Shown here: positions 1,909-32,297 of the stretch, in pieces
Layout of the letters: each line of letters begins with the position of its first letter
Position numbering within the stretch: position 1 is the first letter of the stretch
DNA from: Ruegeria atlantica
GTDB lineage: Bacteria; Pseudomonadota; Alphaproteobacteria; Rhodobacterales; Rhodobacteraceae
DNA: 64,000 nt
Direction of reading: 5' to 3'
NCBI RefSeq assembly: GCF_013032505.1
Contig: NZ_WQCG01000006.1
Span: forward strand, 62,001-126,000
Program-made: the position numbers and the translations under genes
The notes under the pieces: model-generated
What the model saw: the letters and a program-made list of their open reading frames with translations, nothing else
Database searches by the model: none
Told to the model about the DNA's origin: nothing

Positions 1909-3687
1909 ATGAAAATGACCACTGAAGAGGCCTTTGTTAAGGTTCTGCAAATGCACGGTATCGAACATGCGTTCGGTATCATCGGTTCGGCCATGATGCC
2001 GATTTCGGACCTGTTCCCGAAGGCGGGAATCAATTTCTGGGACTGCGCCCACGAAGGCTCTGGCGGCATGATGGCTGACGGTTACACCCGCGCCACCGGC
2101 AAAATGTCGATGATGATCGCGCAAAACGGCCCCGGCATCACCAACTTTGTGACCGCTGTGAAAACCGCATACTGGAACCACACTCCGGTTCTGCTGGTCA
2201 CTCCGCAGGCGGCCAACAAGACCATCGGTCAGGGCGGCTTCCAGGAGATGGAGCAGATGCGTATGTTCGCAGACTGCGTTGCCTACCAGGAAGAAGTCCG
2301 TGATCCGTCGCGCGTTGCCGAAGTTCTGAACCGCGTGATCATGAACGCCAAGCGCGCCAGCGCACCAGCTCAGCTGAACATCCCGCGTGACATGTGGACC
2401 CAGGTTGTCGACATCGAACTGCCCAAGATCGTTGAATTCGAACGTCCTTCCGGCGGCGAAGATGCAGTTGCTGCGGCGGCTGAGATGCTGTCGAACGCAA
2501 AGAACCCTGTCATCCTGAACGGCGCCGGCGTTGTTCTGGCCGAAGGTGGTATCGAAGCGTCGAAAGCTCTGGCCGAGCGTCTGGACGCACCGGTCTGCGT
2601 TGGCTACCAGCACAACGACGCCTTCCCCGGTTCGCACCCGCTGTTTGCTGGCCCACTTGGCTATAACGGCTCGAAAGCCGGTATGGAACTGATCTCGGAA
2701 GCGGACGTTGTTCTGGCTCTGGGCACCCGTCTGAACCCGTTCTCGACCCTGCCCGGCTATGGCATCAACTACTGGCCCGCAAATGCGAAGATCATTCAGG
2801 TCGACATCAACCCTGACCGCATCGGCCTGACCAAAGATGTCAGCGTCGGCATCATTGGCGACGCCGCCAAAGTTGCCAACGGCATCCTGTCCCGCCTGAG
2901 CGATACCGCAGGTGACGAAGGCCGTCAGGAGCGTAAGGACCGCATCGCCCAGAAGAAATCTGCATGGGCGCAGGAACTGACCTCGATGACTCACGAGGAC
3001 GACGATCCAGGCACCACCTGGAACGAGCGTGCACGTGCAGCCAAGCCTGACTGGATGAGCCCCCGCATGGCATGGCGCGCAATTCAGGCCGCACTGCCGA
3101 AAGAGGCGATCATCTCGTCCGACATCGGCAACAACTGCGCCATCGGCAACGCGTACCCGTCCTTCGAAGAGGGCCGCAAGTACCTGGCACCTGGCCTGTT
3201 CGGCCCCTGTGGTTACGGTCTGCCTGCCATCGTTGGCGCGAAAATCGGCCAGCCGGAGGTTCCGGTTGTTGGTTTCGCAGGTGACGGCGCATTTGGTATC
3301 GCCGTGAACGAACTGACCGCAATTGGCCGTTCGGAATGGCCTGCTGTGACCCAGATCGTCTTCCGCAACTACCAGTGGGGTGCCGAAAAGCGTAACTCGA
3401 CTCTGTGGTTCGACGACAACTTTGTTGGCACCGAGCTGGACACTCAGGTTTCCTATGCTGGTATCGCCAAAGCATGTGGCCTGAAAGGCGTGGTTGCACG
3501 CACGCAGGACGAGCTGACCGCGGCGCTGAACCAGGCGATCGAGGACCAGAAGAACGGCACCACCACGTTGATCGAAGCTCTGATCAACCAGGAACTGGGT
3601 GAGCCCTTCCGTCGTGACGCCATGAAGAAGCCTGTCGCCGTTGCCGGCGTTTCTGACGCAGACATGACGCCTCAGGCCGGAGCATAA
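1909..3687 (+). CDS. xsc: Sulfoacetaldehyde acetyltransferase
   Basis: Xsc is a thiamine-diphosphate enzyme that converts sulfoacetaldehyde and phosphate to acetyl phosphate and sulfite in the cytoplasm. It is the key step of taurine, isethionate and sulfoacetate breakdown. The 592-residue protein has the N-terminal ThDP pyrimidine domain (GIIGSAMMPISD, glutamate in HEGSGGMMADGY), a central domain, and the C-terminal ThDP/Mg motif GDGAFGIAVNE. The ATG at 1909 is chosen over an in-frame GTG at 1870 because GGAGA lies 8 bases upstream and the family begins MKMTTEEAF. pta follows after 4 bases, so acetyl phosphate is passed on directly. TauR-like repeats lie upstream. Confidence 0.97.
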   Translation: MKMTTEEAFVKVLQMHGIEHAFGIIGSAMMPISDLFPKAGINFWDCAHEGSGGMMADGYTRATGKMSMMIAQNGPGITNFVTAVKTAYWNHTPVLLVTPQAANKTIGQGGFQEMEQMRMFADCVAYQEEVRDPSRVAEVLNRVIMNAKRASAPAQLNIPRDMWTQVVDIELPKIVEFERPSGGEDAVAAAAEMLSNAKNPVILNGAGVVLAEGGIEASKALAERLDAPVCVGYQHNDAFPGSHPLFAGPLGYNGSKAGMELISEADVVLALGTRLNPFSTLPGYGINYWPANAKIIQVDINPDRIGLTKDVSVGIIGDAAKVANGILSRLSDTAGDEGRQERKDRIAQKKSAWAQELTSMTHEDDDPGTTWNERARAAKPDWMSPRMAWRAIQAALPKEAIISSDIGNNCAIGNAYPSFEEGRKYLAPGLFGPCGYGLPAIVGAKIGQPEVPVVGFAGDGAFGIAVNELTAIGRSEWPAVTQIVFRNYQWGAEKRNSTLWFDDNFVGTELDTQVSYAGIAKACGLKGVVARTQDELTAALNQAIEDQKNGTTTLIEALINQELGEPFRRDAMKKPVAVAGVSDADMTPQAGA

Positions 3688-20510: not shown

Positions 20511-21221
20511 ATGCCCAGCCGGATTGCCGCGGATCAGATCTTGCGCGTGCCGCTGCTGCCGGTTCTGGCAGCCCAGGCGGTTTCCGTGCGCCGAAACGCG
20601 CAACAACTTCCAGAACCCTCGGGCCCTCGACAAGGGCGCGAAGGGCGCGGCCCCCGGTTGCGGTTGCTAATCGCAGGCGATAGCTCGGCAGCCGGCGTTG
20701 GTGCTGGCCGACAACAACAGGCGCTTTCGGGATTTTTGGTTCAACAATTGGCACGCCACTACAGCGTGGAATGGCAACTTGAAGCAACGACAGGCCATAC
20801 AACACAGGATACGCTGGACCGACTGAACCGACTTGAAGGCCGTTTTGATGCTGCCGTGACAGCCTTGGGTGTAAACGACGTCACGCGTGGTGTTTCCCGG
20901 CAAAGGTTCACAGCTTTACAGATCCAACTGCTGAACCATCTGACGGACAATCTGGGTGTGCGCCGCATCGTCTTGACTGCGGTACCGCAAATGAACCGAT
21001 TTCCGGCATTGCCTCAGCCACTCGCGTGGGTGCTGGGCCGTCAGGCTGCCCGGCTGGATCAGGGATTACAAACCGCCGCGTCGGCATTCGCGCAAGCCCG
21101 CCACCTGCCGTTGGAGTTTCCGGATGACCCGGCGCTTGCTGCTCCGGACGGATATCACCCAAGCCCGAAAGCCTATCGCTTGTGGGCGGAGGCCGCCGCC
21201 GACCTGCTGCGTCAGCTCTGA
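20511..21221 (+). CDS. SGNH/GDSL-family hydrolase
   Basis: This 236-residue esterase/lipase-like protein has the SGNH blocks in order: block I IAGDSSAAGVG with the nucleophilic Ser (about residue 60), block III ALGVNDVTRGV, and block V APDGYHPSPKAY with the Asp and His. No signal peptide is evident, so it probably acts in the cytoplasm on an unknown ester. The ATG at 20511 lies 2 bases past the SnoaL gene stop; a TTG at 20505 overlapping that stop is an alternative. The 3' end overlaps the convergent rarD by 10 bases. Confidence 0.87.
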   Translation: MPSRIAADQILRVPLLPVLAAQAVSVRRNAQQLPEPSGPRQGREGRGPRLRLLIAGDSSAAGVGAGRQQQALSGFLVQQLARHYSVEWQLEATTGHTTQDTLDRLNRLEGRFDAAVTALGVNDVTRGVSRQRFTALQIQLLNHLTDNLGVRRIVLTAVPQMNRFPALPQPLAWVLGRQAARLDQGLQTAASAFAQARHLPLEFPDDPALAAPDGYHPSPKAYRLWAEAAADLLRQL

Positions 21222-22120
21222 GCCCGCATCTGACGGATCATCGGGATCGTGTAAACCACCAGCGCCGCCCAGATCAGCGGAAAGGCGATCATGCGCCCCC
21301 GGTCGATCTGTTCGCCAAACACGGTGATAGCGGTGATGAAGATCATCGTCGGAGCGATATATTGCAGGATCCCCATTGTGGACAGCCGAACCAGTTTCGC
21401 CCCGTTGGCATAGACCAGCAAAGGAACAGCCGTGACGATACCAGCGCAAGCAAGCAGCATGGTGTCCCCGGCGGCAGCGCCGAAGTGACCAGTTCCTTTT
21501 GCCCCCAACCAGGTGATGTAAACCAAGGCGGGGATCAACAGGATCAGGACCTCAAGCAGAAATCCCTGATTGGGACCTATGGGCAACGAGCGTTTGAAGA
21601 ACGCGTAAAACCCCCAACTAACGGTCAGGGCAAGCGCAGCCCATGGAAGCCGTCCGGCTTCGACAACCAACACCAAAACGCCCAATGCGGCCAAACCAAC
21701 CGCCACCATCTGCGTGCGGTTCAAAGGCTCGCGCAGCAGGACCGCACCCAGCGCAATGCTGAACAATGGGTTGATATAGTAACCCAGCGCTGCGTCCAGC
21801 GCATTGCCGCTGGCTATGGCCCACACGTAAATGGCCCAGTTCACCGAGATCAAAGCCGCAGTCAGGCAGGCCATACCCAGCATTTTCGGATTCTGTAGCG
21901 CAGCTTTCAGATCCTTGGTCCGCCCCAGCGCCACCAGCAACAGCCCGGCCACAGGAACCGACCAAACAATCCGGTGGGCCACGATCTCAACTGGTCCGAT
22001 ATGCGCCAGAGCTTTCATGTAAAGCGGCAAGAAACCCCAAAGTGTGTAAGCGGTAACTGCAAGGGCAAGACCCTTTGGCGTGTCCTCATTCTGGGGTGAC
22101 GTCGCGGCTTTCGCCATCAT
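21212..22120 (-). CDS. rarD: RarD-type EamA transporter
   Basis: This 302-residue inner-membrane protein of the DMT superfamily has about ten transmembrane helices and the RarD signature region (YTLWGFLPLYMKAL, AHRIVWSVPVAG, WAIASGNALDAALGYYINPL). RarD was named for chloramphenicol sensitivity, but the transported compound is unknown. The start ATG at 22120 is followed by a charged tail (MMAKAATSPQNEDTPKG) before the first helix. It is transcribed alone, separated from the upstream catabolic operon by that operon's terminator. Confidence 0.87.
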   Translation of the reverse strand: MMAKAATSPQNEDTPKGLALAVTAYTLWGFLPLYMKALAHIGPVEIVAHRIVWSVPVAGLLLVALGRTKDLKAALQNPKMLGMACLTAALISVNWAIYVWAIASGNALDAALGYYINPLFSIALGAVLLREPLNRTQMVAVGLAALGVLVLVVEAGRLPWAALALTVSWGFYAFFKRSLPIGPNQGFLLEVLILLIPALVYITWLGAKGTGHFGAAAGDTMLLACAGIVTAVPLLVYANGAKLVRLSTMGILQYIAPTMIFITAITVFGEQIDRGRMIAFPLIWAALVVYTIPMIRQMRAQS

Positions 22121-22262: not shown

Positions 22263-24716
22263 TTATACTTTGACGCGCTCTGATTTTGGATCGTACATCG
22301 GCTTGAGTGATGCTTCGGCTTTCACCTTCACACCACACACGTCGATCTCATAGGCCGAAGCCAGAACGTCGGCTGCCTTTTCGCCTTCGCAAGGCACGTA
22401 ACCCAGACCGATTGCGCCGCCCAACGTGTGGCCATAGTTGCCCGAGGAGAGGTATCCCACATACTCGCCATCACGAATGATCGGCTCATTGTGGAACAGC
22501 AGCGGTTCCGGGTCGGTCAGTTTGAACTGGACAAGGCGGTTGTGCGGTCCACTTTCCTTGCGCGCAATCACCGCTTCGCGACCGATAAAGTCGCTGCCCT
22601 TATCGACCTTGACCGCAAACCCAAGCCCTGCATCGACGACGTGGTCCTCGCAGGTGATGTCATGGCCGAAGTGGCGGAAACCTTTTTCGATCCGGGCACT
22701 GTCCATCATGTGCATGCCGCACAGTTTCAATCCCATGTCCTGCCCGGCCTCGTGCAGGGTTTCGAACACATGTCCCGCCATGTCCGACGAGACATAGATT
22801 TCCCAACCCAGCTCACCGACATAAGTAACCCGATGGGCGCGGGCCAGGCCCATGCCGATCTCGATTTCCTGTGCGGTGCCAAAAGGGTTGGTCGCGTTGG
22901 TGAAATCGTTCGGTGAGACCTTTTCAAGCAAGGTGCGCGCATTTGGGCCCATGATGGCCAGAACGCCCTCGCCCGCCGTGACATCGGTGATGACGACATT
23001 GAAGTTGCCCGCATTGCGCTGCATCCACGTCTGATCCGCCAGACGGGTCGCGGCCGGGGTCACCACCAGATAGGCAGTCTCAGTCAGGCGCGTGACCGTT
23101 ACATCCGCCTCGATCCCGCCTGAGCGGTTGAGGAATTGTGTGTAAACGATCTTGCCGTTCGGCACCGAGTAGTCGCCGCCGCCGACATAGTTCATGAACG
23201 CCTCGGCATCGGGGCCTTCGACACGGATTTTGCCGAAAGATGACATGTCGTACATACCGACATTTTCGCGAACAGCCTTGTGTTCAGCCGCCGAGTTCTC
23301 GAACCAGTTCTGGCGCTTCCAGCTGTACTGGTATTCCCGCTCCTGCCCTTCATTCGCGAACCAGTTGGCACGTTCCCAGCCCGCCAGTTCGCCCATGACC
23401 GCGCCCTGTTCCAACAGGTGATGATGGAACGGCGTCCGGCGCACGCCACGCGCGGTGGCCTTTTGGCGATAGGGGAAGTGGTCGGCGTACAGCAGACCCA
23501 GCGTCTCTTTCGAACGCTCAAACAAATACTGTTTGTTGCCCTGGAACGGTTGCATCCGACCGATGTCCACGTCGCCCAGATCGAACGGTTTTTCACCACT
23601 GTCCATCCATTCGGCCAGCGCCATACCAGCACCGCCAGCGGACTGAATACCGATCGAGTTGAAACCCGCTGCGATCCAGACGTTGTCCATCTCAGGCGCA
23701 AGACCCAAATGATAGGCATCATCAGGGGTAAACGATTCCGGTCCATTGAAGAAGGTGTGGATGCCAGCCTCGGCTAACATAGGCATACGTTCACACGCGG
23801 CTTCGAGGATTGGCTCGAAATGGTCGAAATCCTCGGGCAGTTGGTCGAACTCAAACGTGTCGGGGATGCCGTTCATCGCCCACGGCTTGGCGTTCGGTTC
23901 AAATGCACCCAACAGAATCTTGCCAGCATCTTCTTTGTAATATGCGCACTCATCCGGAACTCGCAGAACCGGCAATTGGGTCAAGCCGTCGATGCCTTCT
24001 GTGACAATGTAGAAGTGTTCGCACGCGTGCAACGGAACGTTGACGCCAGCCATCTTGCCGACCTCATGCCCCCACATACCCGCGCAATTCACGACCATGT
24101 CACATTCGATATGGCCCGAGGCGCTGCCGTCATCCGCGACCCAGTCAACACCGCTCACCTTGCGGCCCTGTTTGACGATGTCGGTGACCTTCACGCGTTC
24201 CTTGACGATACCGCCACGTTGTCGGGCCCCTTTTGCCAGCGCCAATGCAATGTTGGCCGGATCACCCTGACCGTCCAGCGGCAGGTAAACAGCACCCGTC
24301 ACACCTTGTAGGTTGATGTGCGGATACAGTTCCTGAATGCGCTCATTTTCGATTTCTTCGACCTCGACACCAAAGGCCCGTGCCATGGCCGCCTGACGGT
24401 AGAGCTCTTCTTTGCGCTCTTCAGTCAACGCAACAGTGATCGACCCACAACGCTTAAATCCCGTTGCCACACCGGTTTCTTCCTCAAGCGAGCCATAAAG
24501 CTCCTGACTGTACTTCGCCAGTTTGGTCATGTTCGCCGTTGCGCGCAGCTGCGCGATCAAGCCCGCCGCGTGCCAGGTGGTACCGCTGGTCAGTTGCTTA
24601 CGTTCCAGCAGCACTACGTCTTTCCAGCCCTTTTTGGTCAGGTGGTACGCCACCGAACATCCGATGACTCCGCCACCGATGATGACAACACGGGCCTTAG
24701 TAGGAAGATCAGCCAT
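22263..24716 (-). CDS. Dimethylglycine/sarcosine dehydrogenase-like FAD-GcvT fusion (paralogue 1)
   Basis: This 817-residue two-domain protein matches mitochondrial and bacterial dimethylglycine dehydrogenases. Residues about 1-400 are a DAO-type FAD domain (VVIIGGGVIGCSVAYHL) with His49 in GTTWHAAGL, the position that carries covalent FAD in DMGDH. Residues about 430-810 are a GcvT/aminomethyltransferase domain that would pass the released methyl group to tetrahydrofolate. The ATG at 24716 is preferred over 24722 because GGA is 9 rather than 3 bases away. It is the last gene of the operon, 88 bases after the GlxA-type regulator and followed by a terminator. The exact N-methyl substrate is unproven. 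Confidence 0.85.
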   Translation of the reverse strand: MADLPTKARVVIIGGGVIGCSVAYHLTKKGWKDVVLLERKQLTSGTTWHAAGLIAQLRATANMTKLAKYSQELYGSLEEETGVATGFKRCGSITVALTEERKEELYRQAAMARAFGVEVEEIENERIQELYPHINLQGVTGAVYLPLDGQGDPANIALALAKGARQRGGIVKERVKVTDIVKQGRKVSGVDWVADDGSASGHIECDMVVNCAGMWGHEVGKMAGVNVPLHACEHFYIVTEGIDGLTQLPVLRVPDECAYYKEDAGKILLGAFEPNAKPWAMNGIPDTFEFDQLPEDFDHFEPILEAACERMPMLAEAGIHTFFNGPESFTPDDAYHLGLAPEMDNVWIAAGFNSIGIQSAGGAGMALAEWMDSGEKPFDLGDVDIGRMQPFQGNKQYLFERSKETLGLLYADHFPYRQKATARGVRRTPFHHHLLEQGAVMGELAGWERANWFANEGQEREYQYSWKRQNWFENSAAEHKAVRENVGMYDMSSFGKIRVEGPDAEAFMNYVGGGDYSVPNGKIVYTQFLNRSGGIEADVTVTRLTETAYLVVTPAATRLADQTWMQRNAGNFNVVITDVTAGEGVLAIMGPNARTLLEKVSPNDFTNATNPFGTAQEIEIGMGLARAHRVTYVGELGWEIYVSSDMAGHVFETLHEAGQDMGLKLCGMHMMDSARIEKGFRHFGHDITCEDHVVDAGLGFAVKVDKGSDFIGREAVIARKESGPHNRLVQFKLTDPEPLLFHNEPIIRDGEYVGYLSSGNYGHTLGGAIGLGYVPCEGEKAADVLASAYEIDVCGVKVKAEASLKPMYDPKSERVKV

Positions 24717-24804
24717 TCTCATGATTCCGCTTTATGAGTTTCCAGCCAAAATACACGGAAGAGCGACGCAGAATGCACGAAAAACGTCAGCGCATTTGCA
24801 AAAA

Positions 24805-25779
24805 TCAACCATGTTTAACTTGCCGCTTTTCGCGTCTCAACACGAAGGGCGTCACCCCAAAAAAGCTTTTGTAGACCGACGAAAACCCGTTGGGAAACCC
24901 GCAGGCCAGTCCGATTTCGCGCACGCTCATCGTAGTGTTCAGCAGGAGGTTATTGGCCTTGGCCAGCCTCATCTCGCGGTAAAAGCCGTTTGGTGTGGTT
25001 CCGAAATAGTTCTTGAACTTCCGCTCCAGAGAACGGTTCGAAAGCTTTAGTGCTTCGACGATTTCCCGTATCGGCAGCGGGTCTTCGATATTGGCCTGCA
25101 TCACCTTGATGCACTGATCCAGCTTGGCGTCACCGGTTGCCGTGGTTTTTGAACCAGAAAAGGGCTGAAGCGAGGAAAAGTCCCGGATGTTCTCGTGCAG
25201 CATAATATCGGCCACGGTCATTCTGGTTGGCCCAGATATGTGGCGCCCGATCACCGCCAGCGCGACATCGGTTGTCGCCTCCATCCCGGCGCAGGTCACA
25301 ACGGCGCCCTGTTCCGTTGCAATCGACAGTTTGGCTTCGAATTGAGCGCGGCGTTCGCGCAGAAAGGACGCGTTTTCCCAATGGGTCGACATATCCTCGG
25401 TCCCCTGCTCGTCAATATAGCGGCTTGCCGCCTCGGACAGTAGAAAGACCTGCGCGCCGCGGTACGTGTAGTCGGATACGACGCGCCCCATAGAGAGGTC
25501 CGGATGATCAGGGTCGGAATTGCCGATGACAAAAAGATAGTCCGCGTTGGGCTGGGGCGGAATGCACTCGGTCTGGATCGTCGCTTCGCTGCTGCTGGTA
25601 ATCGGACCACCCTTATGCGAGCGATAGGTGTAGGTGAACGGAGGGTTTGGGCAAACGCGGTTCGCCAGTCGCAGTACCTCAACCAAAGACGCCAGTTCCA
25701 GCAGCACAAAGCCTGGCGCTACGACAATGTCGAAATGCCGCTGAGCCGTAACAACCGGGATGTTGGACGTCGATGGCAT
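24805..25779 (-). CDS. GlxA/GbdR-type AraC-family regulator with DJ-1/PfpI-like domain
   Basis: This 324-residue protein has an N-terminal class I glutamine amidotransferase-like (DJ-1/PfpI) sensor domain (residues about 10-195, with VTCAGMEATTDVALAVIGRH). Its C-terminal AraC HTH pair spans about 225-315 (PLPIREIVEALKLSNRSLERKF and MSVREIGLACGFPNGFSSVYK). Relatives include GbdR and CdhR, which govern glycine betaine and carnitine catabolism. Its place among dimethylglycine-type genes supports such a role. ATG 25779 follows AAGGAAAG, 10 bases after the methyltransferase gene, so it is an internal cistron of the operon. Confidence 0.88.
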   Translation of the reverse strand: MPSTSNIPVVTAQRHFDIVVAPGFVLLELASLVEVLRLANRVCPNPPFTYTYRSHKGGPITSSSEATIQTECIPPQPNADYLFVIGNSDPDHPDLSMGRVVSDYTYRGAQVFLLSEAASRYIDEQGTEDMSTHWENASFLRERRAQFEAKLSIATEQGAVVTCAGMEATTDVALAVIGRHISGPTRMTVADIMLHENIRDFSSLQPFSGSKTTATGDAKLDQCIKVMQANIEDPLPIREIVEALKLSNRSLERKFKNYFGTTPNGFYREMRLAKANNLLLNTTMSVREIGLACGFPNGFSSVYKSFFGVTPFVLRREKRQVKHG

Positions 25780-25789
25780 CACTTTCCTT

Positions 25790-26683
25790 TCAGACAATCT
25801 GGTGCCCGGCGGACCGCAAGCGGCCGGCAAGAACCTCGATGTGGTCCGGACCGACTTCGCAGCATCCACCAACAATCGTTGCCCCTTGTTCTACCCATCC
25901 CATGGCGTGACCGGCGTATTCATCGGGCCCCAGATCGTGGCGTTGTTCCAAAGCATCCACTGTTGGGGCGTCCTTCAGGAATTCCTGGGTAATTCCAGTA
26001 AACCCATTGGCATAAGCCCCAAATGGCCGGCCTAGCGTGGCTATGACCTCAAGCGCAGCATGAATGGCCTCGGGGCGCGAACAGTTGATCAGAACCGCAT
26101 CAGGAGAGAATTGCTCAACAAGGGGCGCAATATCTCCAAGCGGTTCTCCAGAGCGCAGGCGCGATCCATCATCGTCCATGACCGACAGAGCCAGCCAGAC
26201 CGGCTTGCCCGCATCCTTCGTGCCACGCAAAGCCCCTTCGGCCTCTTGCACCGAGGACACGGTTTCGATCAGGAAAAGGTCAACGTCATTGGCCATAAGG
26301 TTAACCAACTCGGCAAATTTTTTCGCGGCGTCTTCCACGTCGGGTTTCAGATCGGGACGATAAGACGCCAGCAAAGGGCCCAGCGCGCCAGCGATGCGAC
26401 CGGAACTGTCCCCTCGCGCCCGGTTCGCCTGAGTAACCGCAGCATGGATCAGCTCGGGCAGTTGGCCTTCCATACCCAGGCGCTCCAACCGAGAACGATG
26501 GACCGCGTAAGTATTGGTCGTGGCAACCGTTGCGCCACGGCGGAAATATTCGGCGTGGACCTCTTGCACCAATTCGGGATGGTCGATCATTACGCGCGTC
26601 GACCACAGCGGAGTGGGTTTGTCCCCACTGCGTTTGACCAGTTCTTGCCCAATCGAGCCATCCAGAAGCGTTATTTCTGCCAT
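25790..26683 (-). CDS. Zinc-dependent homocysteine S-methyltransferase family protein (BHMT/MmuM-like)
   Basis: This 297-residue (beta/alpha)8 barrel has the family start LLDGSIGQELVKRSGD and the three zinc ligands Cys201 (INCSRPE), Cys274 and Cys275 (GGCCEVGP). The family moves a methyl group from betaine, S-methylmethionine or DMSP-type sulfonium compounds to homocysteine, giving methionine. With two DMGDH-like enzymes in the same operon, removal of the first methyl of a betaine to give a dimethyl compound is an attractive role. Methyl donors other than betaine remain possible. The gene is 12 bases after the MDR gene and 10 before the regulator. Confidence 0.85.
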   Translation of the reverse strand: MAEITLLDGSIGQELVKRSGDKPTPLWSTRVMIDHPELVQEVHAEYFRRGATVATTNTYAVHRSRLERLGMEGQLPELIHAAVTQANRARGDSSGRIAGALGPLLASYRPDLKPDVEDAAKKFAELVNLMANDVDLFLIETVSSVQEAEGALRGTKDAGKPVWLALSVMDDDGSRLRSGEPLGDIAPLVEQFSPDAVLINCSRPEAIHAALEVIATLGRPFGAYANGFTGITQEFLKDAPTVDALEQRHDLGPDEYAGHAMGWVEQGATIVGGCCEVGPDHIEVLAGRLRSAGHQIV

Positions 26684-26695
26684 TTGCCAACCTTC

Positions 26696-27748
26696 CTACG
26701 GAATCAGAACGAGTTTTCCCGGCAGCGCTTTGGACTGGAAGTCCTCTTGCGCTCTGGCGATGTCTCTTAGTGGATAGGTCTTGGAAACCAAAGGCCTGAT
26801 GCGGCCCGCGTTCATCATCTCGACAAGGCGGCCAAATACATCGAATGCCTGATGCGTGCAGCCATGAATGGTAATGTCGCGAAGGTAAATCTCGCGCAGG
26901 TCGGCCTGGACGATTGGTCCTGCGATTGCGCCGGAAACAGCATAGTGCCCGCCGGGTTTAAGCGCCAGAACCAGATCCGGCCATGCCGGGCCTCCGACCA
27001 CGTCGATCACGACGTCGAAGATATCTTTGGGCAATGGTGCTTTGCGATCAAAGGTATCAATGGCACCTTGCGCCTTGACCACCTCGGCCTTGGCTGCAGT
27101 CGTTACGCCCCAAACCGTCGCTCCGCGCAGTGCTGCCAGCTGTACAGCGGCAAGACCCACGCCGCCCGAAGCGCCGGTGATCAGCACCTTATGGCCTGCA
27201 GTCACACCTGAGCGGGTCAACAGGTTCTCGGCTGTGCCAAATGCACAAGGGATTGCAGCAATTTCGACGTCCGACAATGGGGAGGCTGTGACGTCATAAA
27301 GATCACTTGCCTCAACCAGACAGTATTGCGCAAAGGCCCCATCGATTTCAGACCCCAGCGCGATGAACCCCGTCGGGTTGCCTGGCCGTGGACGCGGTAG
27401 ATTTATCGGACAGGTCACGCGTTGCCCGGCTGTGAACCCGGTATCGGGACCGGCCACTTCGACGTAACCGCACAGGTCACCACCCTGAATTCGAGGGAAA
27501 GACAGCGCTCCACCCCAGCCGCCGGCGTCGACATCCTGATCGACATCATCCGTGGCACCGGTGACGTCCGAAGAATACCAACCGACCCGTGTATTGATGT
27601 CAGTGTTGTTAACGCCCGCGGCCGCGACCCGAACCAGCACCTGACCCTGGCCGGGTGTTGGGACCGGCATATCCTCGCGCCACTCCAGCGCTTCGGGGCC
27701 GCCATGACGGGTCAAGTAAACGCCAGACATGATCTCAGGAACAGCCAT
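26696..27748 (-). CDS. MDR-superfamily NAD(P)H-dependent oxidoreductase (quinone reductase-like)
   Basis: This 350-residue medium-chain dehydrogenase/reductase has the GroES-like domain (MPVPTPGQGQVLVRV, AAGVNNTDINTR) and the Rossmann motif GASGGVGLAAVQLA. The catalytic and structural zinc cysteines are not evident, so the quinone oxidoreductase-like branch is likelier than alcohol dehydrogenase. The ATG at 27748 has AAGGGG 5 bases upstream and lies 10 bases after the cupin stop; longer starts would overlap that gene. Its step in the pathway is unknown: perhaps reduction or oxidation of a carbon-chain intermediate of the substrate. Confidence 0.83.
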   Translation of the reverse strand: MAVPEIMSGVYLTRHGGPEALEWREDMPVPTPGQGQVLVRVAAAGVNNTDINTRVGWYSSDVTGATDDVDQDVDAGGWGGALSFPRIQGGDLCGYVEVAGPDTGFTAGQRVTCPINLPRPRPGNPTGFIALGSEIDGAFAQYCLVEASDLYDVTASPLSDVEIAAIPCAFGTAENLLTRSGVTAGHKVLITGASGGVGLAAVQLAALRGATVWGVTTAAKAEVVKAQGAIDTFDRKAPLPKDIFDVVIDVVGGPAWPDLVLALKPGGHYAVSGAIAGPIVQADLREIYLRDITIHGCTHQAFDVFGRLVEMMNAGRIRPLVSKTYPLRDIARAQEDFQSKALPGKLVLIP

Positions 27749-27758
27749 CAGCGCCCCT

Positions 27759-28235
27759 TCACTGCTGATCATCCGGATGAGCGGGAACCGGGCCCATCGG
27801 TACGATGTCATAGCGTGCATTCAACTCGGCCATCTTCGCCTCATCCGCGAAGTCTGCCTCGTCCATCGCCGCCAGTTCGGCAAGAAATCCGTCGAACCCC
27901 GAGGGCTGAAAGATCATAAGCATTCTGCCAGGCGCACCATCGGCCACGCGGCAGGCATGAGGCACACCGGGCGGCACATGCATGGTTGTACCCGGGGGGC
28001 ACCGATGCCAGTCACCATCAACATAGAAATCTACTGAACCTTCCAGAAAATAGAAGGTTTCGGCATGGTTGTCATGGCGATGAAGGCCAAGCGCGAAGCT
28101 GGCCTTCAGATTGTCTTCCATAAGCGTGTATGCGCCATCCGTGTCCTGACCGGAAACCTTCACAAAGGTGTGGTCGTTTTCCCAGTCATAGTTGGGACCC
28201 TCACCGGGTCCCAGTTTGGCGTATCGTTTGCTCAT
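27759..28235 (-). CDS. Cupin-domain protein
   Basis: This 158-residue single-domain cupin has motif 1 LHRHDNHAETFYFLEG (two His and a Glu as metal ligands) and motif 2 PPGVPHACR (third His). A metal-dependent dioxygenase, isomerase or lyase is possible; DMSP lyases are also small cupins, but the required extra Tyr and His residues cannot be checked without alignment. It begins LGPGEGPNYDWENDHTFVKV, which I do not recognise as a named family. It is packed between DMGDH-like gene 2 and the MDR gene (18 and 10 bases), so it probably acts in the same pathway. Confidence 0.82.
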   Translation of the reverse strand: MSKRYAKLGPGEGPNYDWENDHTFVKVSGQDTDGAYTLMEDNLKASFALGLHRHDNHAETFYFLEGSVDFYVDGDWHRCPPGTTMHVPPGVPHACRVADGAPGRMLMIFQPSGFDGFLAELAAMDEADFADEAKMAELNARYDIVPMGPVPAHPDDQQ

Positions 28236-28253
28236 GGCAGTCTCCGTGAGAAG

Positions 28254-30704
28254 TTAAGCGCGCAACCGCTCGTTCTCGGGATCCCAAAGCGGCTGATCCT
28301 GCTCTACCACAGCGCGGCACTTTTGGCCGTAGATTTCGACCTCAAGCTCAGTGCCGGGGTTGGCAAGCTCGGCCTTGATCATGCCCAGCGCTATGGATTT
28401 GCCAACGCGGTATCCCCATGCGCCTGACGTGGTCTCGCCCACGATCTGATCGCCCTGCCAGATGCAGGACATATACGGCGCGTCGCAATCGCCCGCATCC
28501 ACGGTCAGCGTGACAAACGACTTCTTCACGCCCTGCTGCTTTTCGTTCAGGATCGCAGCCTTGCCCGGGAAGTCCTGCGGCTTGTCCAGCTTGACGAACC
28601 GCCCAAGACCGCCTTCCAACAGCGAGTAGTCGGTCGACAGATCGCCCTTCCAGGCACGGTAACCCTTTTCGATCCGCAGCGAGTTCAGAGCGTACATCCC
28701 GAACGGCGTGGCACCGGCATCGATGATCGCGTCATAGATCGCGGGCATATGCTCGTTCAGAGCGTGGACTTCCCATCCCAGCTCACCCGCGAAGGAGACG
28801 CGGATCAGATAGGCGGGCTGGCCTGCAACAGTTGCAGACTGATGAGTCAGCCACCCCGAGGTCAGATCCGCATCCGTCATAGTCGACAGTATCTCGCGCG
28901 ACTTCGGACCAGTGACGATCAATGTATCCCGTGTCGTGGTAACGTCTTCAATCGAAACACTCGCAGGCATTGCGTTCATCAGGATGTCCCGATCATGCCA
29001 CTGTGCAGTTGCGGCGGTGATCATGATGAACTCATCCTCACCTATACGGATACAGGACATCTCGGTCAGTATGCGACCACGGTCATCAGAGATATAGATG
29101 AGGTTCATCCGGCCGACCTTTGGCAACCCACCGGTTGCGAGGCCGCGCAGCGCCTCAGCGGCGCCCTCTCCCTTGACCATGAAGCGCGAGAAGCCTGGCA
29201 GATCCAGCACTCCACAACCATCCCGCACGGCCTCGCATTCCTCTTGGATCCGCTGCTCCCACGGGCCGGACCGACCCCAGGTATGGGTGGCATCAAGCGA
29301 TGTGTCATCGCCCGGCTTCGCGAACCAGTTAGCCCGCTCCCATCCGTTATAGGCACCCATCACGCCGCCCAGCGCCTTGACCTTGTCATGCACCGGCGAC
29401 AGTTTCTTGTCGCGCGCTGCTGGCCATTCGTGATGGGGGAAGTGCATGGCGTATTCGTTGCCATAAACCTCCAGACCTTTTTGGTTGCAGTAGTCCTGAT
29501 CTGTGTAGTCGGTGTAGCGGCGCGGATCGACGGCCCACATATCCCACTCGGTCGCGCCATCGACGATCCATTCGGCCAGCACCTTACCTGCACCACCGCC
29601 CTGAGCGATGCCAAAGGTGAATGTGTGTGCCTCGAACGCGTTTTTCACACCGGGCATTGGGCCGATCAGCGGCAGCCCGTCCGGCGCATAGGGGATCGGG
29701 CCGTTGATCACACGGCCAACGCCGGAGGTCGCCATCAACGGCACCCGCTCCATCGCGTCAGTGACGATGTCCTCGATGCGGTCCAGATCGTCATTCCACA
29801 GCTGGAACGAGAAATCCTCGGGCATTGCATCGTCTTCGGTCATCCAGTGGCCCTTGCAGTTGGGCTCATAAGGACCAAGGTTAAAGCCGTTCTTTTCCTG
29901 CCGCAGGTAGTACGAGATATCCACATCGCGCAGCAACGGCAGCTTCTTGCCTCCGTTCGCTTTGGACCATTCCTCGACTTCAGGCACTTCGTCTGTCAGC
30001 AGGTACTGGTGGCTCATGACCATTGCGGGAACGGTACGACCGCCGAAGGGCTTGAACCACTCCCCCACGCGCTGTGCGTAGTAGCCGGCCGCGTTCACGA
30101 CGTAATCACAATCGATGTCACCCTTGTCAGTGTGGACAGTCCAGGTACCGTCGTCGTGCTGGGTGACGCCGGTCGCCGGGCAGAAGCGGATGATCTTCTG
30201 ACCCATGTCACGGGCACCCTTGGCCAACGCCTGTGTCAGCTGCGCCGGATCAATGTCGCCATCTGTCGGGTCGTACAGTACGCCTTCAAGATCGTGCGTT
30301 TCTAGGAATGGATAGCGCTCTTTAGCTTCTTCCGGTGTCCACATCTCCATCGGGATGCCCTGGTAGCGTCCCATCGCCATCGCGTGTTCGAACTCCTGCA
30401 TCCGCTCTTTGCTGTGCGCCAAACGGATTGAGCCCGAAACATGGTAGTTCATCGGGTAGTCAACCTCTTCGCCCAAACGCGAATACAGCTCGGTCGAGTA
30501 CCGCTGCATATTCATGATCGCCCATGAATTCGAGAACGTCGGAACGTTACCCGCCGCGTGCCAGGTCGAGCCTGCCGTCAGTTCGTTCTTTTCCAGCAGA
30601 ACACAATCAGTCCAGCCTTTCTTGGCCAGATGGTACAGCGAGGAAGCCCCCACCACACCGCCACCGATTACAACCACGCGGGCTTTTGTCGGAAAATCGC
30701 TCAT
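28254..30704 (-). CDS. Dimethylglycine/sarcosine dehydrogenase-like FAD-GcvT fusion (paralogue 2)
   Basis: This 816-residue protein has the same two-domain design as the gene at 22263: an FAD domain (VVVIGGGVVGASSLYHL, His49 in GSTWHAAGN) and a C-terminal GcvT domain (residues about 430-810). The two copies share the first 50 residues closely but diverge further on, which points to related but different substrates, for example dimethyl versus monomethyl amines. AAGGATC precedes the ATG. It lies 15 bases after the Gfa-like gene, which could deal with formaldehyde released when tetrahydrofolate is limiting. Confidence 0.85.
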   Translation of the reverse strand: MSDFPTKARVVVIGGGVVGASSLYHLAKKGWTDCVLLEKNELTAGSTWHAAGNVPTFSNSWAIMNMQRYSTELYSRLGEEVDYPMNYHVSGSIRLAHSKERMQEFEHAMAMGRYQGIPMEMWTPEEAKERYPFLETHDLEGVLYDPTDGDIDPAQLTQALAKGARDMGQKIIRFCPATGVTQHDDGTWTVHTDKGDIDCDYVVNAAGYYAQRVGEWFKPFGGRTVPAMVMSHQYLLTDEVPEVEEWSKANGGKKLPLLRDVDISYYLRQEKNGFNLGPYEPNCKGHWMTEDDAMPEDFSFQLWNDDLDRIEDIVTDAMERVPLMATSGVGRVINGPIPYAPDGLPLIGPMPGVKNAFEAHTFTFGIAQGGGAGKVLAEWIVDGATEWDMWAVDPRRYTDYTDQDYCNQKGLEVYGNEYAMHFPHHEWPAARDKKLSPVHDKVKALGGVMGAYNGWERANWFAKPGDDTSLDATHTWGRSGPWEQRIQEECEAVRDGCGVLDLPGFSRFMVKGEGAAEALRGLATGGLPKVGRMNLIYISDDRGRILTEMSCIRIGEDEFIMITAATAQWHDRDILMNAMPASVSIEDVTTTRDTLIVTGPKSREILSTMTDADLTSGWLTHQSATVAGQPAYLIRVSFAGELGWEVHALNEHMPAIYDAIIDAGATPFGMYALNSLRIEKGYRAWKGDLSTDYSLLEGGLGRFVKLDKPQDFPGKAAILNEKQQGVKKSFVTLTVDAGDCDAPYMSCIWQGDQIVGETTSGAWGYRVGKSIALGMIKAELANPGTELEVEIYGQKCRAVVEQDQPLWDPENERLRA

Positions 30705-30719
30705 TGGTATTGATCCTTG

Positions 30720-31100
30720 TTACTGTGCCCGTTGGGGCAGATCGTCCGTGATGTCGTAGTAATCGCCCTTGTCGGCGACAAAGATATGCTTCGAGAGCGT
30801 TAGACCCGTGGGCTCGCTGAGCGCACCCATGGAAATTGAAATCGTGTCCTCGTCATTGTGCTGCCAAAAGAGGAACGAACCGCATGACCGGCAGAACCCG
30901 CGGCGGGCGGTGTCCGAGGCGCGGAACCAAGTCAGCGTATCGCTTGCGGTGAAGCTCAGGTTGTCCTGATGCGTCCAGGTCGAAGACCAGATATGGCCGG
31001 ACTGTTTTCGGCACTGGCCACAGTGGCAGGCCGAAGGCGGCGACAACTCTCCGTCAATCGTGAACGCGACTGCGCCGCAGAGGCAAGAACCTTTGTGCAT
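30720..31100 (-). CDS. GFA family protein (glutathione-dependent formaldehyde-activating-like)
   Basis: This 126-residue Zn protein of the Gfa/CENP-V family has MHKGSCLCGAVAF, CHCGQCRKQSGHIW and CRSCGSFLFW, giving the seven cysteines that bind two zinc ions. Family members were proposed to speed formation of S-hydroxymethylglutathione, though many have unknown roles. In this operon a link to formaldehyde from oxidative demethylation is a sensible inference. The ATG at 31100 is 4 bases after the LysE stop; the longer frame upstream lies inside lysE and is discarded. Confidence 0.87.
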   Translation of the reverse strand: MHKGSCLCGAVAFTIDGELSPPSACHCGQCRKQSGHIWSSTWTHQDNLSFTASDTLTWFRASDTARRGFCRSCGSFLFWQHNDEDTISISMGALSEPTGLTLSKHIFVADKGDYYDITDDLPQRAQ

Positions 31101-31104
31101 CTGA

Positions 31105-31728
31105 TTACCCCCTAGCTGCGGGCGTGGAGCTGGCACCCAGCAAAACGCCATAGATGATGAAACAGGCGGCCATGACACGACGCACCCAAGTGTTGAAAAC
31201 CGCTCCAAGCGCAGCCTTGCCCATCAGCGCGCCCAACACGGTGAACCCGGTGTAGCTAAGCGTGGTGATGATCAGCGCCGTAGGCATGATGACGACCATC
31301 TGCTGCCAGATCGGAACATCAGGCTGCACAAACTGGGAAAAAGCGGCGAGGTAACCTGCTACGCTTTTAGGATTGATCGTAGCGACCGCCAGTGCGTGCA
31401 GATACACATGGCGCGCGGGTCGCTCACTTGCCGGGGCCGGGCGCGTGGCATTCATCCAGCCGCGAACCCCAACCCAGATCAGGAACCCTGCCCCTACCAG
31501 TTTGGCGATAAAAAACCCGGTTGGGGATGCTGCGATCAGCGCGGTCACACCCAGCGCTGACAGGACAAGAAACGTGCTGGCCTGCGTTAGAATCGCCAGC
31601 ACTCCCAGCATCGCTTTCGGAAACGGCAGGCTCATCCCGTTGGAAATGCAATTGACCGCGTTCGGCCCCGGAGTGGTGACGAACACCACCCAAAACAGCG
31701 CGAATATGGTCCAGGCTTCAAAGCTCAT
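31105..31728 (-). CDS. LysE/RhtB-family transporter
   Basis: This 207-residue inner-membrane protein has about six hydrophobic helices and the LysE/RhtB signature FVTTPGPNAVNCISNG near the N-terminus. Members export amino acids or their derivatives. Its start codon shares one base with the stop of the XRE-cupin regulator (translation coupling), and it is 4 bases from the Gfa-like gene. Export of an excess or toxic amino-acid intermediate of the pathway is the likely role, but import cannot be excluded. Confidence 0.9.
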   Translation of the reverse strand: MSFEAWTIFALFWVVFVTTPGPNAVNCISNGMSLPFPKAMLGVLAILTQASTFLVLSALGVTALIAASPTGFFIAKLVGAGFLIWVGVRGWMNATRPAPASERPARHVYLHALAVATINPKSVAGYLAAFSQFVQPDVPIWQQMVVIMPTALIITTLSYTGFTVLGALMGKAALGAVFNTWVRRVMAACFIIYGVLLGASSTPAARG

Positions 31729-32297
31729 CAGTACACCGGCGGAGCGATAACCCAGATGGCCACTGCGGGCTCATCATAGGGGTTCGACCATTGATAGGGT
31801 TCATGTTTGATCCGAAAGCTGTCGCCGGGGCCAACCGAAAACTGGCGCCCACTGATCGTCAGTTCCAACCGCCCTGACACGATGTACCCTACCTCCTGCG
31901 TTGGTCGGTTGGCCGGAGTTTGCATTTTCGATCGGGGCTTGAACGTGGAATGCACCATTTCGAAATCATCGGTCAGATCGGGCGACAGCAGTTCTTCGAT
32001 CAACCCTTCCTCACCGGACCCCATCGGGCGGCGCGTTCCGGCGCGCACCACATACCCCTGCTCATCTGCCGGAGCGGAAGAATGCGCGAACAGCATCGAC
32101 ATCGGCACGCCCAGACATTCGGCAATCTGGCGCAGGTCGGAAATTGAGGGGTCGGACTTGTCGCGCTCGACTTGGCTAAGCCAACCAACAGAACGACCCA
32201 GACGTGCAGCGATCTCGGTCAGCGTCAACCCACGCGCCTTTCGCAGAGCCCGAAGATCGGCTCCGAGTGTGGCGCTGTGCGGGGCTTGGCTGTTCAC
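31728..32297 (-). CDS. XRE-family regulator with C-terminal cupin sensor domain
   Basis: This 189-residue protein has an N-terminal XRE helix-turn-helix (residues about 10-68: ADLRALRKARGLTLTEIAAR, GWLSQVERDKSDPSISDL). A cupin_2 sensor domain follows (about 110-185, with MQTPANRPTQEVGYIVSG and GPGDSFRIKHEPYQWSN). Such proteins (for example PuuR) repress amine or amino-acid catabolic genes and release DNA on ligand binding. It is the first gene of a nine-gene run, and two tandem palindromes lie in its upstream region, so autoregulated control of the whole operon is likely. Confidence 0.9.
   Translation of the reverse strand: MNSQAPHSATLGADLRALRKARGLTLTEIAARLGRSVGWLSQVERDKSDPSISDLRQIAECLGVPMSMLFAHSSAPADEQGYVVRAGTRRPMGSGEEGLIEELLSPDLTDDFEMVHSTFKPRSKMQTPANRPTQEVGYIVSGRLELTISGRQFSVGPGDSFRIKHEPYQWSNPYDEPAVAIWVIAPPVY

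Follow-up and report, generated by a model that had tools for sequence, protein, structure and literature searches.

Which compound is served by a run of nine genes carrying two proteins of the dimethylglycine dehydrogenase (DMGDH)-GcvT type and a homocysteine S-methyltransferase, and has such a cluster been described before? To answer these questions we analyzed a stretch of 64,000 nucleotides of Ruegeria atlantica (contig NZ_WQCG01000006.1, positions 62,001 to 126,000), here referred to as the window. All nine genes are located on the minus strand and are read from position 32297 down to 22263 of the window. Their order is XRE-cupin regulator, LysE exporter, Gfa-like gene, DMGDH-GcvT gene (here named DM2), small cupin gene, medium-chain dehydrogenase/reductase (MDR), homocysteine S-methyltransferase family gene (here named MMU), AraC-type (GlxA) regulator and the other DMGDH-GcvT gene (DM1). 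A sequence-only reading made previously had listed nine same-strand genes with these domains at 22263-32297, and both the reading frames and the Pfam matches confirmed it.

The run is probably the roseobacter cluster for glycine betaine demethylation, with the roles of its main proteins as follows. Judged from their domains and from published counterparts, which are predictions themselves, DM2 would oxidise dimethylglycine to sarcosine and DM1 would oxidise sarcosine to glycine. The GcvT halves of both proteins would hand the released one-carbon unit to tetrahydrofolate. The first demethylation, from glycine betaine to dimethylglycine, would mainly be carried out by the cobalamin system MtgBCD encoded elsewhere; its role in this step was shown genetically in Ruegeria pomeroyi (PMC12478193) and would extend to the present genome. 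As a side route, MMU may form methionine from homocysteine and a methylated donor, of which glycine betaine or a related osmolyte is the likeliest. The XRE-cupin and the GbdR-like AraC-type protein may sense a pathway intermediate, and LysE may export surplus amino acid. Glycine betaine is an abundant marine osmolyte, and a link between its demethylation in roseobacters and the synthesis of methionine has been described (PMC12478193).

Match to described clusters

The cluster is already known, and its role in close relatives has been described on the basis of predictions and, in part, of proteomic data. In Roseobacter litoralis, which grows on glycine betaine, the genes for sarcosine dehydrogenase (SARDH), a protein with a homocysteine S-methyltransferase domain and DMGDH lie side by side as RLO149_c039090-c039110 (PMC3141670). 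For the middle gene, a new class of betaine-homocysteine methyltransferase (BHMT) in bacteria was put forward in 2011 (PMC3141670). In contrast to the window analyzed here, three genes are named there, and the regulators, LysE, the Gfa-like gene, MDR and the cupin are not discussed in the available passages (PMC3141670). For R. pomeroyi DSS-3, SPO3400 was described as dimethylglycine dehydrogenase and SPO3396 as sarcosine dehydrogenase (PMC4744692), and SPO3398 as homocysteine S-methyltransferase and SPO3402 as LysE in a paper on small RNAs (PMC4809877). The positions 3396, 3398, 3400 and 3402 of these four tags within SPO3396-SPO3402 fit the window order DM1-GlxA-MMU-MDR-DM2-Gfa-LysE. Strain SZCCDBG043 (locus L161), which is labelled as R. 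pomeroyi, carried DM1-GlxA-MMU-MDR-DM2-Gfa, with no small cupin or LysE in the run. Two DMGDH-GcvT genes on one strand with an S-methyl_trans gene between them were found in the window as well as in relatives.

The sequence-only reading had known of no matching cluster. This did not hold, since RLO149_c039090-c039110 (PMC3141670) and SPO3396/SPO3400 (PMC4744692) match by order and names, and the locus therefore corresponds to a described cluster whose assigned substrate is glycine betaine. The proposed route for a methylated amine, betaine or related osmolyte was borne out, with glycine betaine as the best-supported substrate, but its formaldehyde and homocysteine details were not.

DM2 (28254..30704, at the position of SPO3400) is likely a dimethylglycine dehydrogenase and DM1 (22263..24716, at the position of SPO3396) likely a sarcosine dehydrogenase. 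Each of them combined the Pfam domains DAO, FAO_M, GCV_T and GCV_T_C in one chain. The best match of DM2 in the PDB was the mammalian DMGDH with 574 bits, compared to 291 bits for the bacterial dimethylglycine oxidase; the corresponding values for DM1 were 481 and 418 bits. Both proteins share the motif WHAAG (W50-H51-A52-A53-G54), aligned with the mammalian DMGDH, which we take to be the carrier of the flavin-linked histidine. Because no sarcosine dehydrogenase of such type was among the PDB matches of DM1 and DM2, their substrate assignment rests on the published names.

A phylogeny of the two paralogues, suggested as a check by the sequence-only reading, was calculated from 42 proteins. Each of the two window proteins was joined by 13 orthologues, and the other 14 were additional proteins of the same genome. 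DM1 and DM2 were each placed in a clade of their own with 14 rows and a support of 100/100; the other paralogues of this genome were found on long branches. By this tree DM1 and DM2 belong to separate orthologous groups. A recent tandem duplication as their origin was ruled out by the separate clades and by the identity of 32.5% between both proteins.

The systems MtgBCDE of R. pomeroyi and the split methionine synthase of Phaeobacter inhibens link glycine betaine demethylation to methionine synthesis (PMC12478193, PMC5764234). P. inhibens depended on three genes of its split methionine synthase for growth without added methionine (PMC5764234). In R. pomeroyi, growth on glycine betaine was lost in mtgC and mtgD mutants and was not restored by methionine, and N-osmolytes raised the levels of the proteins predicted for the dimethylglycine and sarcosine steps (PMC12478193). 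Counterparts of MtgBCDE are present in the R. atlantica genome (5.12 Mb, 32 contigs) outside the cluster. In total, 12 matches to MTTB (the MtgB family) and one to B12-binding_2 were found. The best NCBIfam model for the sole B12-binding_2 protein was MtgC with 198.6 bits, below the cut-off of 370. A separate MtgE/Bmt-type protein passed the BHMT model NF005718 with 598.3 bits (cut-off 338). An MtgC match at E 1e-60 was present in 184 of 198 genomes of the family and hardly discriminates between them.

Several points weigh against the assignment of the run to glycine betaine demethylation as set out above. In the same genome, GCV_T matches were located in frames of about 1000 aa (C31:173041 and C1:487765, given as contig and position), which is presumably the size of the sarcosine oxidase alpha subunit. 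Since such frames are present, the demethylation steps may be shared with proteins of this kind. The roseobacter steps, those of R. pomeroyi included, have been predicted as Bhmt1, DgcA and SoxBDAG (PMC7574528), which is a competing or parallel assignment. Both Roseobacter species used glycine betaine for growth, but not added dimethylglycine; the authors suggested that their DMGDHs may act only on dimethylglycine formed intracellularly (PMC3141670). The main text of PMC12478193, as distinct from its figures and supplements, names none of SPO3396, SPO3398 and SPO3400, and no assay of any enzyme of this cluster was found in the open-access literature searched. Furthermore, we infer the match to DSS-3 and R. 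litoralis from gene order and names.

Conservation of the run in relatives

Loci were gathered by means of MMU in two sets, so that MMU is present in both by selection. The sets share some genomes, as seen from contigs of equal length in both. A scan of named relatives gave at least 587 confirmed matches, of which the best 80 were kept; the top rows of these were mostly from Ruegeria. Among them, 66 loci were full length and the 14 shorter ones were excluded from the counts. The second set comprised 40 loci from genomes of the family, out of 105 other genomes with a match, mostly the better-scoring ones. Judged by MMU, the closest named relatives among the matches listed were Ruegeria, first of all L089, with identities of 90% for MMU, 98% for DM2 and 97% for DM1.

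DM1, DM2 and MMU were found together on one strand in 63 of the 66 full-length named loci and in 28 of the 40 loci of the family set, a clustering that exceeds chance. In the named loci, DM2 was present in 64, DM1 in 63, the XRE-cupin in 62 and the Gfa-like gene in 58 loci. The remaining genes were less constant (LysE and the AraC-type regulator in 46 each, MDR in 40, RarD in 32 and the small cupin in 14).

To describe presence and absence, 198 genomes of the family were searched with limits of E 1e-20 for MMU and E 1e-250 or better for DM2, a strict limit that may overlook genes truncated at the end of a contig. Each genome was counted with a single row, and two weaker second MMU rows (G004 and G033) were dropped. 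MMU was found in 106 and DM2 in 121 genomes: 87 genomes carried both, 19 MMU only, 34 DM2 only and 58 neither. The resulting odds ratio of 7.8 (p 6e-11) ignores shared ancestry. In 63 of the 87 genomes with both genes, MMU followed DM2 in the same orientation at a distance of no more than 8 kb, with gaps from -1 to 1622 bases; the other 24 include fragmented assemblies.

From the 34 genomes with DM2 and no MMU, 20 DM2 loci were examined. Since DM1 adjoined DM2 in 18 and the XRE-cupin in 17 of these, the steadiest core is XRE-DM2-DM1, into which MMU is often inserted. As a possible substitute for MMU, a gene of the MTTB/MtgB family was looked for and found near DM2 in 4 of the 20 loci. Among the loci gathered by MMU, such a gene was present in 3 of the 40 from the family set and in 1 of the 80 named ones. 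The counts of this comparison are small, and it was made with 8 of the 12 MTTB proteins and with differing E limits (1e-8 and 1e-20).

The homocysteine methyltransferase MMU

The cluster itself is no news, and the remaining interest sits in MMU (25790..26683, at the position of SPO3398), which matched PF02574 (S-methyl_trans) with 203.4 bits. It stayed below the cut-offs of the NCBIfam models for BHMT (NF005718, 65.9 bits, cut-off 338) and MmuM (NF007020, 141.9 bits, cut-off 215). By these curated cut-offs, MMU is neither a BHMT nor an MmuM. With the MtgE-type protein of the same genome it shared an identity of 27%. The residues C201, C274 and C275, which we take to be the conserved zinc cysteines of the homocysteine S-methyltransferase superfamily, were invariant in 22 sequences. 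The structure of MMU was predicted with a mean pLDDT (the model's per-residue confidence score) of 89.3. Top-ranked among the solved structures was MmuM of Escherichia coli (Z 32.3, 31% identity), from which MMU differs by its score below the MmuM cut-off. It was followed by MetH of Thermotoga maritima (Z 32.1) and BHMT (Z 30.7); this comparison does not part MmuM from MetH as nearest to MMU. The barrel fold of the superfamily and its three cysteines are thus both found in MMU.

On the role of MMU, the proposal of a BHMT class from 2011 and the genetics from 2025, with MtgBCD for the first step, pull in different directions. According to the former, the run would be a complete route by itself, with MMU as a new class of BHMT for the first demethylation and DM2 and DM1 for the other two, as proposed for R. 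litoralis (PMC3141670). Three enzymes would then match three methyl groups, and for another member of the superfamily, MtgE/Bmt of P. inhibens, the formation of methionine from betaine as well as from dimethylsulfoniopropionate (DMSP) was shown in vitro (PMC12366255). The co-occurrence of MMU and DM2 (odds ratio 7.8, p 6e-11, with shared ancestry ignored) and the position of MMU within 8 kb downstream of DM2 on the same strand in 63 of 87 genomes fit this explanation as well. However, mutants in mtgC and mtgD fail on glycine betaine with methionine although DSS-3 has SPO3398 (PMC12478193, PMC4809877). Homocysteine methyl transfer, which the sequence-only reading had joined to the route, is therefore doubtful as the main catabolic step. 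Moreover, methionine would be expected to accumulate one for one. Since MMU at E 1e-20 is missing in 34 of the 121 DM2 genomes and DM2 in 19 of the 106 MMU genomes, the distribution argues against MMU as an obligatory step with DM2. We therefore consider a route that is complete within the run rather unlikely.

DMGDH-GcvT proteins are used for several betaines, and the cluster might serve stachydrine, carnitine, homarine, trigonelline or DMSP instead of glycine betaine. The number of such proteins in this genome is in favour of this, since 14 further DMGDH-GcvT proteins were found in the 15 stretches of the genome examined. On the other hand, clusters with this same gene order have been assigned to glycine betaine. 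Rieske genes adjoin other DMGDH genes of the genome, but none of the nine proteins of the run has a Rieske domain. Homarine, alone among homarine, stachydrine, carnitine and DMSP, was searched by name in the literature, which gave no matching cluster; where a literature search did give a match, the compound indicated was glycine betaine. A different substrate thus seems highly improbable, and glycine betaine demethylation, with MtgBCD for the first step and MMU on a side route, is preferred.

For this side route, a tentative explanation to which we give a low probability is a separable module of MMU, the short GFA-domain protein and LysE. Independently of cobalamin, such a module might make methionine directly from glycine betaine or a different methylated osmolyte and export the surplus, the export of methionine being a guess. 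If true, it would keep methionine synthesis going while the shared MtgC/MtgD machinery demethylates. In seven loci (L050, L053, L070, L073, L076, L134 and L158), MMU was accompanied by one or two Gfa-like genes with no intact DM1 or DM2 in the stretch; L158 is a contig of 5 kb, where absence means little. LysE was also located beside MMU and the Gfa-like gene in L053 and L134, and the LysE match in L076 was weak. In L053 (8766-11223), LysE-Gfa-MMU was kept and DM1 was reduced to two short fragments. In L134 (8866-11913), LysE-Gfa-MMU was present without DM1, DM2 and the XRE-cupin, and RarD followed as in the window. Both loci suggest that MMU can be kept without the demethylases. For four of the seven loci a DM2 match was found elsewhere in the genome (G182, G173, G010 and G104). 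Against the module, MMU in L052, L060, L064, L066 and L069 was accompanied by none of the nine genes at 45% identity. No test of the conserved MMU was found in the open-access literature searched.

Two genomes, G136 and G160 (97 and 96% complete), carried the DM2-MMU pair with no MtgC match at E 1e-60 and are candidates for MMU-dependent methionine synthesis. An antisense RNA of 217 bases, cis78, was reported on SPO3398, the MMU counterpart of R. pomeroyi (PMC4809877).

Accessory genes and other regions of the genome

With the most plausible starts, the gaps between the nine genes in reading order were -1, 4, 15, 18, 10, 12, 10 and 88 bases. The spacing of 4 to 18 bases with 88 before the last gene, as given by the sequence-only reading, was thus found again, except that the XRE-cupin and LysE genes overlap by one base instead of being separated by a gap.

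The XRE-cupin regulator (31728..32297) has a GTG start and matched HTH_31 and Cupin_2 above the Pfam cut-offs; with 58.2 bits it was below the cut-off of the PuuR model (211). The LysE/RhtB-type amino-acid exporter (31105..31728; PF01810, 64 bits) was below the cut-off of all six NCBIfam models listed. The short GFA-domain protein (30720..31100) matched PF04828 with 76.2 bits. Its score against the model for S-(hydroxymethyl)glutathione synthase (Gfa, TIGR02820) was 23.2 bits, compared to a cut-off of 234.55. The formaldehyde handling supposed by the sequence-only reading had drawn on this protein alone and is unsupported.

Three genes of the run are optional. These are the small cupin gene (27759..28235, Cupin_2), the zinc-type MDR (26696..27748, ADH_N and ADH_zinc_N) and the AraC-type regulator (24805..25779, HTH_18). 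The best model for the latter was GbdR (NCBIfam NF052371) with 128.1 bits, compared to a cut-off of 480, and the protein is predicted to be of similar type to this regulator of choline metabolism in Pseudomonas. The AraC-type regulator treated in a paper from 2026 on trimethylamine regulation belongs to another cluster, and the present one is not mentioned in the available passages (PMC13390433).

A RarD/EamA transporter gene (21212..22120, minus strand; TIGR00688, 194.2 bits, above the cut-off of 130.15) is located 142 bases downstream of DM1. It is a frequent neighbour in relatives, and its membership of the run is uncertain. Upstream of the run a thiolase gene was present in the window. The upstream frame in L134 looked thiolase-like by eye, as judged from its first residues only. 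No Rfam match at the gathering threshold was found in window positions 15000-40000. A promoter scan gave 7 sites, compared to a shuffle mean of 6.5, and a terminator scan 12, compared to 16.8; both were within the shuffle spread.

Genome-wide, 28 matches to GCV_T (two below the family cut-off), two to S-methyl_trans and nine to the Rieske catalytic domain were found. Rieske genes adjoined DMGDH-GcvT genes on one strand in C1:1425590-1429007 (C1:1425590 and C1:1426587) and on opposite strands in C28:8400-12891 (C28:8400 and C28:10438). These neighbours perhaps serve other betaines. Another region for methylated compounds, C27:24000-43999 (L169), carried three DMGDH-GcvT genes and two MTTB-family genes (C27:25123 and C27:39150). 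The MTTB-family genes around DM2 in L194, L198, L203 and L212, which lack MMU, encode proteins 46-49% identical to that of C27:25123.

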